NCBI GenBank assembly: GCA_021805545.1
Contig: JAJZFB010000001.1
Span: forward strand, 1 to 32,321
Direction of reading: 5' to 3'
Length of the DNA stretch: 32,321 bases
From: Pseudomonadota bacterium
GTDB lineage: Bacteria > Pseudomonadota > Alphaproteobacteria > Acetobacterales > Acetobacteraceae
Part shown: positions 10,326-25,498 of the stretch, one piece after another
How positions within the stretch are numbered: the first letter of the stretch is position 1
How the letters are laid out: each line of letters starts with the position of its first letter
The notes under the pieces: model-generated
Database searches by the model: none
Told to the model about the DNA's origin: nothing
The model's input: the letters and a program-made list of their open reading frames with translations, nothing else
Program-made: the position numbers and the translations under genes

Positions 10326-10676
10326 CTATATTTGCGTGCCCAGCCACACAAACGCCAGGCACAGCCCGGCGGAAGACAGCACATACATAGCCGCGCGCAA
10401 CAATTTTCCGCCCCGCGCCAGCTCCAGGGTCTGCAGGCTGAAGGACGAGAACGTGGTGAACCCGCCACATATGCCCACCATCACAAACGCTTTCATGCCC
10501 AGCGATGCATGTAGCGTGGCGAACAGGCCGATGATGAACGACCCGGTTACGTTGATGAGCAGCGTGCCCCAGGGAAAAGCCGGGCCTGTGAGCGCCGCTA
10601 CCATCGCCGCGAGCCCGTAGCGCGCCATGCTGCCCAATGCGCCGCCCAGCGCAACCAGCGGATAGGCCTCGTTCAT
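10326..10676 (-). CDS. crcB: Fluoride channel CrcB/Fluc (second copy in operon)
   Basis: A 116-residue, four-helix inner-membrane protein of the Fluc family, which works as a dual-topology dimer and lets fluoride leave the cell. Family motifs are GGALGSMARY near the start, GTLLINVTGSFIIG in the middle and GICGGFTTFSSFS. The Phe-box residues and the TTFSS break in helix 3, which line the pores, are present. It is the third gene of the riboswitch-led unit crcB-usp-crcB, 75 bases after usp. It differs clearly in sequence from the first copy, so the pair could act as homodimers or as a heterodimer. GGGAG lies 11 bases before ATG 10676, a loose ribosome site. Confidence 0.93.
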   Translation of the reverse strand: MNEAYPLVALGGALGSMARYGLAAMVAALTGPAFPWGTLLINVTGSFIIGLFATLHASLGMKAFVMVGICGGFTTFSSFSLQTLELARGGKLLRAAMYVLSSAGLCLAFVWLGTQI

Positions 10677-10751
10677 GGCAACTCAACTCCCTGGCCATGA
10701 TGGCCCTGGCGCAAGAGACTCCAAGTGAATGGCCGCATCTTTACATTCTCC

Positions 10752-11567
10752 TCAATGGCGCATCAGTACTGGAATATCCGCATGGGCCAGCATGTATTTT
10801 GTTACGCCGCCAAACAGCCTGTTATGCCAGGCGTTGTGTGCAAACGCGCCCATCACCAGCATGCCGGCATTCAGCTCATGCGCCTTGGCCAGCAGCAGCG
10901 CGCCGAATATATCCTTGCCCACAGGCAATTCGTGCCCCGTTACCGTCACGCCATGCTCGGCCAGCACCGCCGGAATCCGCGGTGGCGGCGCATCCGCGCG
11001 GCGGCCCATCAGCACATGAATATCCGCCGTCCGTGGAATGCAATGCAACACAGACATTACCGCGTGCAGCGTGAATTTATCGTCCCTCCAGGCCACGGCC
11101 ACGGTTTCTCCAAATTCCGTGCCTGCATGCGCCGGCACCATCAGCACGGGGCGCCCCGAGGCAAACAGCGCCGCATGCAGGGCCTCGTGCTCGGCCCGGG
11201 CGCCATGCTCCAGGGGCTGGCCAACAACAATGTAATCGGCCCTCCCGCCCCATTCCTTCACCAATGTTTCCGCCACCCCTTCTTCGTCAATCCAGCGCGG
11301 TCCGGCCTCACCCGCCTGCCCCGCTGCCCAGGCGCCAAAACTGCGGCGCAGCGCGGCGGCGCGCCCGGCCTCGTGGCTGCGTATCGTCTGCTCCTGTTCC
11401 TTCGTCAGCACTTCCTCGGTCACCAGAATGGTCGAGACCGGCGGCACGCGCATCACCAGCACCTCAAACCGCGCGCCACCCGCCAGCGTGCCCAGCCGCG
11501 TGGCGGCCGCCAACACCGTGGCCGCGGAGTCCGTGCGGGTTAAAATCACCAGAATCACGTTGGACAT
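10752..11567 (-). CDS. Universal stress protein family protein
   Basis: A 271-residue cytosolic protein with two alpha/beta UspA-like halves. The N-terminal half begins MSNVILVILTRTD. The C-terminal half ends with LLAKAHELNAGMLVMGAF and a GG-VT loop followed by MLAHADIPVLMRH, typical of Usp domains. In the ATP loop the second glycine of the G-2x-G-9x-G(S/T) pattern is replaced (GAFAHNAWHNRLFGGVT), so nucleotide binding is uncertain. ATG 11567 follows GGGAGGT and overlaps the stop of the upstream crcB as TAATG, which indicates translational coupling. Lying between two fluoride channels, it probably belongs to the fluoride response, but a specific role cannot be read from the sequence. Confidence 0.85.
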   Translation of the reverse strand: MSNVILVILTRTDSAATVLAAATRLGTLAGGARFEVLVMRVPPVSTILVTEEVLTKEQEQTIRSHEAGRAAALRRSFGAWAAGQAGEAGPRWIDEEGVAETLVKEWGGRADYIVVGQPLEHGARAEHEALHAALFASGRPVLMVPAHAGTEFGETVAVAWRDDKFTLHAVMSVLHCIPRTADIHVLMGRRADAPPPRIPAVLAEHGVTVTGHELPVGKDIFGALLLAKAHELNAGMLVMGAFAHNAWHNRLFGGVTKYMLAHADIPVLMRH

Positions 11568-12001
11568 TATACCTCCCAATCCTCTGTGGCCGGCGCCGAG
11601 AGGCGCGAAACCCCAACCAGCCATACGCCAAGCGTAACGGCAAGCAGGCAGCCCAGCACGGAGGCCAGGACATAAATCAAGGACAAACCCGCACCGCCCG
11701 TATGGGCCAGAACCAGCGCCCCCAGGCTGAACGATGAGAAGGTGGTGAACCCGCCGCAAATGCCCACAATCACAAAATTTCGTGTTTCCGGCTCCACTTT
11801 CAACAAGCCCTTGGCCCCCGTGGCCTCGGCAAAAAAGCCGATGACAAAGCAGCCCAGCCAGTTGACCCATAAAATACCCCAGGGAAACGAGCTGTGCATG
11901 AGAACAGGGCCAATATCGCCCAGCCAGAAGCGGGCCATGCTGCCCAGCGCGCCACCAGCGCCAATAACAAGGTAATTTCTAATGCCCAAGGCGTTCAACA
12001 T
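11567..12001 (-). CDS. crcB: Fluoride channel CrcB/Fluc (first copy in operon)
   Basis: A 144-residue four-helix membrane protein. Fluc motifs are GGALGSMARFWL, WGILWVNWLGCFVIGF and VGICGGFTTFSSFS. It is about 20 residues longer than most family members, mostly in the loop before helix 3 and at the C-terminus. ATG 12001 is chosen because MLNALGIRNYLVIGAGGALGS gives a normal N-terminus and GAAGG lies five bases upstream. That ATG sits inside the last codons of a 51-codon hydrophobic ORF (ATGTTGA overlap). The region upstream holds a fluoride aptamer, so the substrate assignment is supported independently. Its stop is coupled to usp. Confidence 0.93.
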   Translation of the reverse strand: MLNALGIRNYLVIGAGGALGSMARFWLGDIGPVLMHSSFPWGILWVNWLGCFVIGFFAEATGAKGLLKVEPETRNFVIVGICGGFTTFSSFSLGALVLAHTGGAGLSLIYVLASVLGCLLAVTLGVWLVGVSRLSAPATEDWEV

Positions 12002-12150
12002 AGCGCCCTTCTGGAAGAAAATAACGGTGAGTGGAATAACGGGAGCCATACCGATAATCCCGCTACCCGTGCAAACAGCGCCCGGCAGCTTCCGCGGGCG
12101 GGCAGCGTTATCCACAAAGCGGAAAAAACAAAAAACCACGCGGCAGACAC
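11995..12150 (-). CDS. Hydrophobic 51-codon leader ORF upstream of crcB
   Basis: GTG 12150 lies nine bases after AGGAGGAG (12167-12160), the best ribosome site in the leader. TTG 12156 in the same frame is an alternative start. The frame runs 51 codons to a TGA at 11997-11995 that overlaps the crcB ATG (12001-11999). The first 17 or so residues (SAAWFFVFSALWITLPA) could span a membrane; the rest is Arg- and Leu-rich and unlike any family I know. Its main role may be to carry ribosomes from the riboswitch-controlled site to crcB. It might also be a real small membrane protein or a chance frame. Evidence is the ribosome site, the exact overlap and the position after the aptamer. No homology is claimed. 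Confidence 0.35.
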   Translation of the reverse strand: MSAAWFFVFSALWITLPARGSCRALFARVAGLSVWLPLFHSPLFSSRRALC

Positions 12151-12154
12151 GCGC
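12123..12154 (-). terminator. Possible intrinsic terminator in the fluoride leader
   Basis: Minus-strand GCGCG and CGCGT can pair around a 7-base loop, followed after GG by six Ts, a G and six more Ts. This could be a transcriptional expression platform. The same bases are the first codons of the leader ORF, and the stem is short, so the ribosome-site sequestering model fits better. The two are not exclusive. Confidence 0.3.
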
Positions 12155-12167
12155 AACAACTCCTCCT

Positions 12168-12231
12168 GACGATCAGGTCCAAAGACGATCAGGTCCAAAG
12201 ACGATCAGGTCCAAAGACGATCAGGTCCAAA
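12168..12231 (-). repeat. 16-bp x4 perfect tandem repeat in the fluoride leader
   Basis: Four identical copies of TTTGGACCTGATCGTC (minus strand) fill 12231-12168 exactly. They start directly after the last bases of the fluoride aptamer and end at the CAGGAGGAG ribosome site. Sixteen is not a multiple of three, so they are not conserved coding repeats. There are no spacers, so it is not a CRISPR array. Copy number may vary between strains. Confidence 0.95.
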
Positions 12232-12280
12232 CAGGAGTTATCAGCCCCAAGGGCGGTTACACGGCGAACCCCATCGCCAA
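12232..12280 (-). promoter_or_regulatory. Fluoride riboswitch (crcB motif aptamer)
   Basis: On the minus strand the sequence GGCGATGGGGTTCGCC (12278-12263) is followed by AACCGCCC-TT-GGGGCTGATAACTCCTG. This follows the crcB RNA layout: a GGCGA/TCGCC stem, an AACCGCCC/GGGCTGAT hairpin and a closing AACUCCU. The long-range pseudoknot pairs GGGGUU in the first loop with AACUCC, allowing one G.U. It lies upstream of crcB with no other gene between except the leader ORF. The likely expression platform is 7-bp pairing of AACUCCU (12239-12233) with AGGAGUU (12164-12158), which covers the leader ribosome site when fluoride is absent. The promoter is not clear. A TTGACA at 12320-12315 overlaps the gntR stop but lacks a well-spaced -10. 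Confidence 0.9.
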
Positions 12281-12316
12281 ACCTTATGGTATACCAGCCG
12301 ATTCAACGCCAATATG

Positions 12317-13069
12317 TCAAGGTTGCCCAAGCCGCTTGGGCGGGGCGCCGCGCAAGCCCTGGGCGCGGTCACGCACCGCGTTACGCACGGTGTCCGATAC
12401 AACGAGGATACGGCTCTCATGCGAATGGCGGATATGCCGCCGGATTGCGTCTTCCGCGCGTGCCGGGTCGCGGGCGCGGATGGCATCCACAATCTCCACA
12501 TGCTCGGCCAGCGCGTCTTCTATGCGCCCAGGGGCGTTATAGGTGGTGGGGCCAAGCAGGGGCACGAAGTTGAGCAGCGATTGCAGGCTTTTCAGTAAAA
12601 ACCGGTTGCGTGCCGCACGGTAGATCTGCTCGTGAAACACTTGGTTTTCGCGGGCATGGGCACGGGCATCGCGCGGCAGGGCGCGCATCGCATCCAGCGT
12701 CGCGGCAAGGATGCGTATTTCAGTTTCATCCGCGTTGCGCGCGGCCAGGGCGGCGGCAGTGCCTTCCAGGCTCTCGCGCATGGCGTAAAATTCGTCGATG
12801 GCGCGCAGATCGTACAGCACCACGGACATGCCGCCGCCCGCCGCATGCTCCAGCATGCCCTCGGCCTGCAGGCGGCGCATGGCCTCGCGCACCGGGGTTC
12901 GGCTCATTTTCAGCCAGGCGGAAACCTCCATCTCCATCAGGCGCTGCCCAGGCGCGATCGTGCCTTCGCGGATCGCATCGTGCAGCATCTCGTAGGCCCA
13001 GGCGGCGCGGCCGCCACCGGCCTCGCCCATGGGGTCCGCACGTTTATGCTCCGGATCGGTCACATTCAT
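12317..13069 (-). CDS. GntR-family regulator, FadR/FCD subfamily
   Basis: A 250-residue DNA-binding regulator starting at ATG 13069. The winged helix spans about 20-80 (AYEMLHDAIREGTIAPGQRL, then MSRTPVREAMRRLQAEGML). It is followed by an all-helical FCD effector domain, recognisable from MRESLEGTAAALAARNA, ENQVFHEQIYRAARN, ALAEHVEIVDAIRARD and AIRRHIRHSHE. The Asp/His residues that bind a metal and a carboxylate ligand in this subfamily appear to be present. Regulators of this kind usually repress neighbouring genes for organic-acid or sugar-acid use. It follows the epimerase gene by 44 bases on the same strand. A TGTATACA palindrome upstream of the flavoprotein dehydrogenase is a candidate operator. 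The ligand is unknown. Confidence 0.88.
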   Translation of the reverse strand: MNVTDPEHKRADPMGEAGGGRAAWAYEMLHDAIREGTIAPGQRLMEMEVSAWLKMSRTPVREAMRRLQAEGMLEHAAGGGMSVVLYDLRAIDEFYAMRESLEGTAAALAARNADETEIRILAATLDAMRALPRDARAHARENQVFHEQIYRAARNRFLLKSLQSLLNFVPLLGPTTYNAPGRIEDALAEHVEIVDAIRARDPARAEDAIRRHIRHSHESRILVVSDTVRNAVRDRAQGLRGAPPKRLGQP

Positions 13070-24371: not shown

Positions 24372-25475
24372 TTAGGCTTCCGGCATGTCTTTATAAAGGG
24401 GCGATTGCAGGTAGCGGCGCAGCCAGTAGCGCGCCAGAACACCCAGCGTGGCGGTTACCGGCACGGCCAGCATGATGCCGAGGAAACCAAACGCGGCGGC
24501 ACCGGCGAACAAGGAAAAAATAACCCACACCGCTGGCAGCCCGACACGGTCGCCCAAAAAACGCGGCTGGATGACGTAATCGTTGAGCATCTGCCCGAAG
24601 GCGAACACGATGGAAACCTGAATAACCCCGCTCCAGCCCGGGTTTTGCGTGAGCGACAGCAAGATGGAGGTGATGACGCCCAGCAGCGTGCCAACATAGG
24701 GAATAAAGGAGAGCAGCCCGGCCACCAGCCCGATGGTGAGGCCGAAATTCAGCCCTATAATGGTCAGCCCGCCCGCATACACCGCCGCCAGCACCAGGCA
24801 GCAAATGGCTTGCCCGCGCAGCCATGCGGCCAAAATGCGGTTAATCTCTCCCGCCTGCTCGCGAATCGCGCCCTCGTACCGGCGGGGCAGCCAGCTATCG
24901 ATATGCGCGACGATGCCCGGCCAATCGCGCAGGAAATAGAAGGTGACGATGGGGGTGATGATGAGCAGGGTGAGCACATTCACCAGGGCAAAGCCGGAGC
25001 CGATGATATTGCTGGCCGCGCTGCCCGCGAAAGAGACGATTTCGCCCGCCTGGTTGGCGGCGATGTCGCGCAGCTTGGTGCTCACCATCCCTGGCCCGAC
25101 ACGCCGCTCCAAATCGCTGACGAGATGCGCGAAATCGCGCTGCGCTGTGGTGATGTAGGAAGGCAGGTTATGCGCCAGGGCAATCGTCTGGTCCGAAATA
25201 ACGGGGTAGAGCAGCAGCGCGAACAGGGTAAGCGCGACCCCCACGGCCGCCAGAATCAGCAACACCCCCACAGAACGGCGCACGCCGATACGGGCCATCC
25301 GCCCCACCGCCGGGTCGAGAAAATAAGCCAGCCCCGCCGCCACCACAAAGGGCGTGAGGATGGACGAAAACAGCCGCAGGAACAGCCATAGCGCCACCAG
25401 CAGCGCGGCCAGCAGCGCCAAGCGCTGCCATTGCAGCCGCCTGGCTTCTGATATGTCTGGGCGCGTATTGCTCAT
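24372..25475 (-). CDS. AI-2E family transporter (PerM/TqsA-like permease)
   Basis: A 367-residue inner-membrane protein with about eight hydrophobic helices in the arrangement of the AI-2E (UPF0118) family. It has a paired N-terminal hairpin ([20 protein letters not shown]) and a soluble insertion ([20 protein letters not shown]). Downstream are the conserved [18 protein letters not shown] block, then [14 protein letters not shown] and [19 protein letters not shown]. Members export small molecules such as AI-2 or act as Na+/H+ antiporters; the substrate here is unknown. The start is peculiar: three perfect 11-bp repeats each carry ATGAGCAATAC, and only the third ATG (25475) opens the gene. 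No good Shine-Dalgarno precedes any of them. It is the first gene of a probable unit with hdaA and ppk and is divergent from purM. Confidence 0.9.
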
Positions 25476-25498
25476 GTATTGCTCATGTATTGCTCATG
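25466..25498 (-). repeat. 11-bp x3 tandem repeat at the permease start
   Basis: Three perfect copies of CATGAGCAATA (minus strand). The first two ATGs (25497 and 25486) read MSNT then TGA, and each TGA overlaps the next ATG as ATGA. The third ATG is the gene start. Confidence 0.95.

Follow-up and report, generated by a model that had tools for sequence, protein, structure and literature searches.

What does a perfect tandem repeat do inside the expression platform of a riboswitch? The DNA that we analyzed (the window) is a 32,321-nt stretch from a bacterium of the Acetobacteraceae, with 62.7% GC and one fluoride riboswitch. The initial annotation had placed a crcB-type aptamer on the minus strand, and a search with the Rfam crcB covariance model agrees: minus-strand positions 12287–12225 match all of RF01734 (model positions 1–64 of 64) with 52.2 bits, above the gathering score of 34 (E = 7e-12). 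The host assembly (2.79 Mb, 97.75% completeness) has no other match at E ≤ 0.001. Judged by its sequence, the aptamer is an unremarkable representative of RF01734, and it is predicted to bind fluoride. The P1 loop pairs with the 3' strand in a pseudoknot of six pairs, including one G-U (GGGGUU at 12272–12267 with AACUCC at 12239–12234, from the sequence and its alignment to the Rfam consensus). All of the features of this locus that we describe below are on the minus strand.

Downstream of the aptamer is a gene for the fluoride channel CrcB (11567–12001; Pfam CRCB, PF02537, 88.3 bits). A second crcB gene lies further downstream (10326–10676; Pfam CRCB, 99.1 bits), with a Usp-domain ORF (Usp, 31.4 bits) between the two. 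The two crcB genes differ from each other, and the cluster (10326–12001) is followed on the same strand by an FtsH-like gene. We read the locus as a fluoride riboswitch that controls a crcB gene; its control probably extends to the crcB-usp-crcB cluster, and we infer that fluoride turns expression on. Just upstream of the aptamer we noticed, by eye, a TTGACA (12315–12320) that is also present in a relative (see below) and might be a promoter -35 element. A promoter scan listed nothing, so this assignment is tentative.

The repeat lies immediately beyond the aptamer. After the pseudoknot strand come one G, four copies of TTTGGACCTGATCGTC (12231–12168), and then AGGAGGAGUUGUU. A repeat scan reports a period of 16, 4.0 copies, and 100% matches, so the four copies are perfect, as had been claimed. 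The initial annotation had also pointed out that AACUCCU (12239–12233) is the exact complement of AGGAGUU (12164–12158), and both the coordinates and the pairing are correct. It had described the array as exactly filling the loop between these strands, which is nearly but not quite right: the spacer is 68 nt and comprises G12232, the 64-nt array, and AGG (12167–12165).

The array is beyond chance. Its 12-mer core, GACCTGATCGTC, occurs exactly at four places in the 2.79-Mb assembly, all of them in the array, and there are 15 places elsewhere with one mismatch; we therefore reject a dispersed repeat family in the host assembly. A 24-nt pattern (one and a half units) had no matches in viral contigs. 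The four-copy state is seen in one assembly, but single short reads are typically long enough to span 64 bp, which makes an assembly artefact unlikely. Four perfect copies imply a recent origin or homogenization. (Elsewhere in the window, at 25465–25498, there are three copies of an 11-nt unit, GTATTGCTCAT.)

How did the array arise? We searched 37 other genomes of the genus with the leader, and one of them (G214) aligned across both flanks of the array. Over the stretch of 400 nt that we compared, G214 does not differ from the corresponding contig of the named metagenome-assembled genome ZJ7.bin6 (L059), and its CrcB is 85% identical to the window's. The aptamer, the strand that competes for the pseudoknot, a T tract, and crcB are placed as in the window, but where the window has four units, the loop of G214 has a single 16-nt unit, CTTGAACCTGAGTTTC, which is identical to the window's unit at 11 of 16 positions in register (74 of 100,000 shuffles do as well). 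A comparison of copy number among relatives, which had been suggested at the outset, thus gives one unit versus four. Since the closest relative that we found has one unit in this loop, the array is best read, from these two sequences, as a tandem expansion of a pre-existing 16-nt loop from one to four units. According to the alignment, the window and G214 share CAGGAGGAGTTGTTGCGCGTGTCTGCC and most of the T tract, and the leader beyond them has many indels. The pseudoknot itself has shifted: GGGGUU/AACUCC in the window, with the G-U pair inside, corresponds to GGAGUU/GACUCC in G214, with a U-G pair at the end (positions 12239 and 12270). The comparison of platforms rests on these two species. 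Eight other aptamers in the genus score above the cut-off, namely the one in G214 and seven that have a different short platform near the start of crcB; three weaker matches, which are below the cut-off and outside our regular expression, were left out. A further locus whose CrcB is 61% identical (L060) has no aptamer that is recognized by the regular expression or that scores above the gathering score.

The initial annotation had called a tandem array in a riboswitch loop unusual, and a wider survey bears this out. We pooled 156 loci from genome searches and a protein search, including 40 further fetched places; some of these loci repeat one another and several have no riboswitch. A regular expression recognized 92 distinct aptamers with enough downstream sequence, and aptamers that were outside the expression or near a contig end were dropped. 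Just one of the 92, the window's, has an exact tandem array of at least 24 nt within 200 nt downstream, and one other (L020) has such an array upstream. The array in L020 (1567–1680; 114 nt) repeats a 7-nt unit perfectly about sixteen times and is directly upstream of the aptamer, between it and a TTGACA-like promoter region. We also scanned another 60 riboswitch places in their entirety and found exact arrays of at least 24 nt in three of them; by coordinates, the array is downstream of the aptamer in L186 and upstream of it in L192 and L204. The only leader array among these 60 loci (L186) is shorter than the window's. Whole-locus scans of the earlier loci also showed exact arrays in L023, L027, L056, L072, and L138; by coordinates, those in L023, L027, and L056 are far from the aptamer match and that in L138 is upstream of the aptamer.

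L186 and its relative L187, which are from two genomes of one other genus, have a degenerate, A-rich, 15-nt tandem repeat between the fluoride aptamer and crcB (320–354 in L186, minus orientation). We counted, by eye, about five copies in L186, where the exact part spans 35 nt, and about three in L187; again by eye, the repeats sit outside the switching hairpin. At least one other fluoride riboswitch leader, then, has tandem repeats that differ in copy number.

Of the 92 loci, 30 have, within 70 nt, a stretch of 6 nt or more that is complementary to the pseudoknot region. Linker lengths vary freely among the surveyed loci; the window's linker, at 68 nt, is the longest of these 30, the next being 49 nt (seven longer values in the survey look like chance matches). 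Overall, the sensor is ordinary and the repeat expansion is unusual.

What does the platform do? In minimum-energy folds, the 3' end of the aptamer, which includes the pseudoknot strand (GAUAACUCCU, 12242–12233), is predicted to pair in the fluoride-free state with a downstream switching strand, AGGAGUUGUU (12164–12155), by ten pairs; in G214, where the switching strand is identical, there are 10 or 11 pairs. The array is predicted to fold on itself as one long, imperfect arm that caps this helix. The earlier suggestion that the pseudoknot strand re-pairs with a downstream strand is therefore upheld as a prediction, with the array in the loop of a 10-bp helix. The fold of a 178-nt segment is modestly better than those of shuffled sequences (z = -2.16; matched by 7 of 200), while a 308-nt segment (z = -1.05) and a partial stretch (z = 0.34) are not better than their shuffles. 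We also considered a longer, colinear anti-aptamer strand that extends beyond the pseudoknot strand. It is attractive by eye, but weak when compared to shuffles: complementarity equal to that of the whole duplex was reached by 64 and 46 of 1,000 dinucleotide shuffles, and for the part without AGGAGGAG the corresponding numbers were 41 and 171 of 1,000. By eye, the last unit and the start of AGGAGGAG (12178–12165) can also pair locally, as CCUGA-UCG-UCAGG, which might form a third state, and G214 keeps the CCUGA/UCAGG stem with another loop.

The switching helix overlaps AGGAGGAG (12167–12160), a Shine-Dalgarno-like sequence that the initial annotation had proposed as the ribosome site of crcB, to be freed by fluoride. 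This hinges on where crcB starts. ATG 12001 is the most likely start and is strongly suggested by comparing the two species. The crcB frame of the window stays open upstream of this ATG, with an in-frame ATG at 12050 and GTG at 12139. In G214, however, the alignment shows a TAG 9 nt before the ATG that corresponds to 12001, so a longer CrcB, with an N-terminal extension to GTG 12139 or ATG 12050, is unlikely. AGGAGGAG is 158 nt from ATG 12001, 109 nt from ATG 12050, and 20 nt from GTG 12139, and all of these distances are outside the usual Shine-Dalgarno spacing. AGGAGGAG is therefore probably not the ribosome site of crcB itself, and the Shine-Dalgarno sequence that would be sequestered here probably does not belong to the controlled gene, as it would in a direct translational switch. 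Occlusion of AGGAGGAG as a direct control of crcB translation, perhaps with a longer CrcB, would account for the exact complementarity of AACUCCU and AGGAGUU, and such sites do exist elsewhere: the complement is 8 nt before an ATG in L065 and 4 nt before one in L143. In all, 8 of the 30 loci with a complement were scored as having it 0–16 nt before the ATG of a long ORF, in a crude count based on the first long ATG frame, by which at least L063 is misclassified. But most members of the family share the pseudoknot strand, so anything complementary to it will automatically resemble a Shine-Dalgarno sequence, and given the distances and the TAG in G214 (the upstream frame is open in the window alone) we consider direct control of crcB translation very improbable.

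A different output is suggested by what follows the switching strand. About 20 nt beyond it is TTTTTTGTTTTTT (T6GT6; 12135–12123), a putative U tract of an intrinsic terminator. It is the only 13-mer in the window, on either strand, with at least 12 T, and it aligns with TTTTTGTTTT in G214. Just before it is a potential hairpin, CGCGUG-UCUGC-CGCGUG (12153–12137; -6.9 kcal/mol), whose counterpart in G214 has one mismatch (-6.0 kcal/mol). A terminator scan listed this hairpin and T tract in the window and did not list the G214 hairpin; the number of terminator-like sites in such scans was not above chance (3 versus 2.3 expected, and 2 versus 0.9 in another scan). Furthermore, the aptamer core could pair with the strand that immediately precedes the T tract: AACCGC (12258–12253) has a candidate partner in GUGGUU (12139–12134), which would form the base of the fluoride-free terminator structure. 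This pairing with AACCGC(C) has 6 pairs in the window and 7 in G214. An uninterrupted run of 6 or more pairs with AACCGCC, with a T tract after it, was found at 3 of 89 loci (the window, G214, and L065), versus 0.2 expected from mononucleotide shuffles, where the 89 are the 92 without three loci whose core strand was not recognized, and two of the three positives (the window and G214) are homologous. Once bound to fluoride, the aptamer should deny AACCGC(C) to the strand before the T tract. This base stem is possible, but it is absent from the minimum-energy structure predicted for the transcript that starts at 12300, and forcing it costs 7.0 kcal/mol relative to the minimum in the window and 4.6 kcal/mol in G214. 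The local CGCGUG hairpin is compatible with the aptamer, so a block of termination by fluoride would have to rest on the wider structure.

We propose that the output is transcription attenuation. With fluoride, AACUCC would be kept in the aptamer's pseudoknot. Without fluoride, AGGAGUUGUU would capture GAUAACUCCU, and the array-capped hairpin would stack beside the CGCGUG hairpin directly before T6GT6, possibly closed by AACCGC/GUGGUU, so that transcription would end at the T tract. We favor this fluoride ON switch, with its array-capped, fluoride-free hairpin, over translation of a leader, and we give it about an even chance of being right.

The main competitor is a translational switch in which fluoride frees AGGAGGAG for a short leader ORF, with crcB translated by coupling or shielded from Rho. 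A possible ORF at 12150–11995 would start at GTG 12150 or at TTG 12156 or 12159, and its TGA overlaps the ATG of crcB (ATGTTGA). AGGAGGAG is a strong Shine-Dalgarno-like sequence with these GTG and TTG codons nearby, and it is identical in G214; the frame is open in both species and ends with ATGTTGA at crcB in each. There is also a precedent, in that an excerpt of PMC11260477 describes a B12 riboswitch upstream of M. tuberculosis ppe2 with a translated uORF that is coupled to ppe2. Against this, the frame is open by chance in 25% (window) or 43% (G214) of dinucleotide shuffles, the codon scores are negative (-0.61 and -0.64), and the peptide is scrambled by indels between the species. With openness at the level of chance and codons that look non-coding, a leader peptide under selection finds no support. 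In folds with four copies, the site is just modestly freer in the fluoride-bound model (0.23–0.41 versus 0.19), and by eye crcB has its own Shine-Dalgarno-like letters before 12001. Leader translation thus seems possible but doubtful. It and termination are not strictly exclusive.

If the array caps the switching helix, does the number of copies matter? The initial annotation had suggested that copy number tunes the switch by changing the loop length. In folds of the isolated segment, however, the energy for closing the switching helix is nearly flat: 10.45 kcal/mol with one copy, 11.81 with four, and 11.32 with ten, and it stays within 10.45–11.81 kcal/mol for 1–10 copies. Another computation gave 10.1 with no unit, 7.3 with one, 8.3 with four, and 7.8 with eight, which is also nearly flat from one unit up, but its "fluoride-bound" constraint let the aptamer unfold and we prefer the first set. 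A thermodynamic tuning by copy number therefore finds no support. Since each unit is able to pair with other units, the arm grows as copies are added and the switching helix is not weakened. Shuffled 64-nt linkers had a mean closure of 7.71, and 12 of 200 reached the observed value; arrays of four shuffled units had a mean of 9.24, and 28 of 200 reached it; for shuffled single units, 70 of 200 reached the one-unit closure. In these models, repeating a modestly self-pairing unit is sufficient for the observed closure, and the balance between the two states seems to shift very little with expansion.

Because closure is so flat, copy number would act, if at all, through timing. Each copy would delay the synthesis of the competing strand by 16 nt, so going from one unit to four adds 48 nt. 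Transcription proceeds at tens of nucleotides per second, and at such speeds the 48-nt delay is on the order of a second. An analogy comes from the pbuE adenine switch: according to part of PMC7707468, induction changes when the helix that nucleates strand exchange is made longer and a hexauridine tract is retained. By this analogy, in which induction changes with the length of the nucleating helix, a kinetic effect of copy number is plausible.

A neutral array fits the data equally well. The repeat could be a slippage product in an apical loop that tolerates it, with the switch unaffected, and this would be compatible with either output. Closure barely shifts with copy number, the arm's stability is unremarkable (115 of 200 arrays of four copies of a shuffled unit are at least as stable), and linkers vary freely at other loci. 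For the array taken alone, we consider neutrality slightly more probable than not. The most adventurous reading is that the array is a contingency element, with slippage altering the number of units and each unit delaying the competing strand by 16 nt, while the stability of both states is roughly kept. If so, the array would be a tunable timer and not a tunable helix, and populations would carry fluoride switches with graded thresholds that are set by kinetics alone; we consider this improbable.

To our knowledge, most studies of how a delay between ligand binding and synthesis of the competing strand affects a riboswitch's threshold have used engineered variants. The two loci compared here are natural versions of one switch, with one unit and with four, and the predicted stability of the helix is nearly constant between them, which could allow a direct distinction between kinetic and thermodynamic control. 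Even if the array is neutral, the locus shows that the loop of an expression platform can expand in modular steps.

In the titles and beginnings of abstracts of the open-licence literature on riboswitch repeats and linkers, we found no mention of a naturally occurring tandem array within an expression platform. The closest published cases, as far as the excerpted text of these articles describes them, are a triple-tandem c-di-GMP riboswitch (PMC4759541) and a variable-number element in Bordetella, for which that text names no riboswitch as the carrier (PMC3110155). The M. tuberculosis ppe2 B12 riboswitch would share the logic of this locus if the doubtful leader ORF is translated, but it has a different aptamer and is an OFF switch (PMC11260477). 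The closer parallel is to transcriptional fluoride riboswitches of the Bacillus cereus type, in which, as partial texts describe them, a fluoride-free hairpin uses the pseudoknot strand as part of the terminator stem and is followed by a U tract (PMC11077080, PMC13273304). Published sequences with a predicted terminator average 98 nt, according to a part of PMC13273304, whereas the window has about 150 nt to its T tract, 48 nt more than G214, and its termination is a prediction. Compared to RF01734 riboswitches in general, the window shares an aptamer that matches the full model, a downstream crcB, and a competing partner for the pseudoknot strand; it differs in having a perfect array of 64 nt as the loop of the competing hairpin, within a linker longer than those of the other surveyed loci with such a partner within 70 nt.
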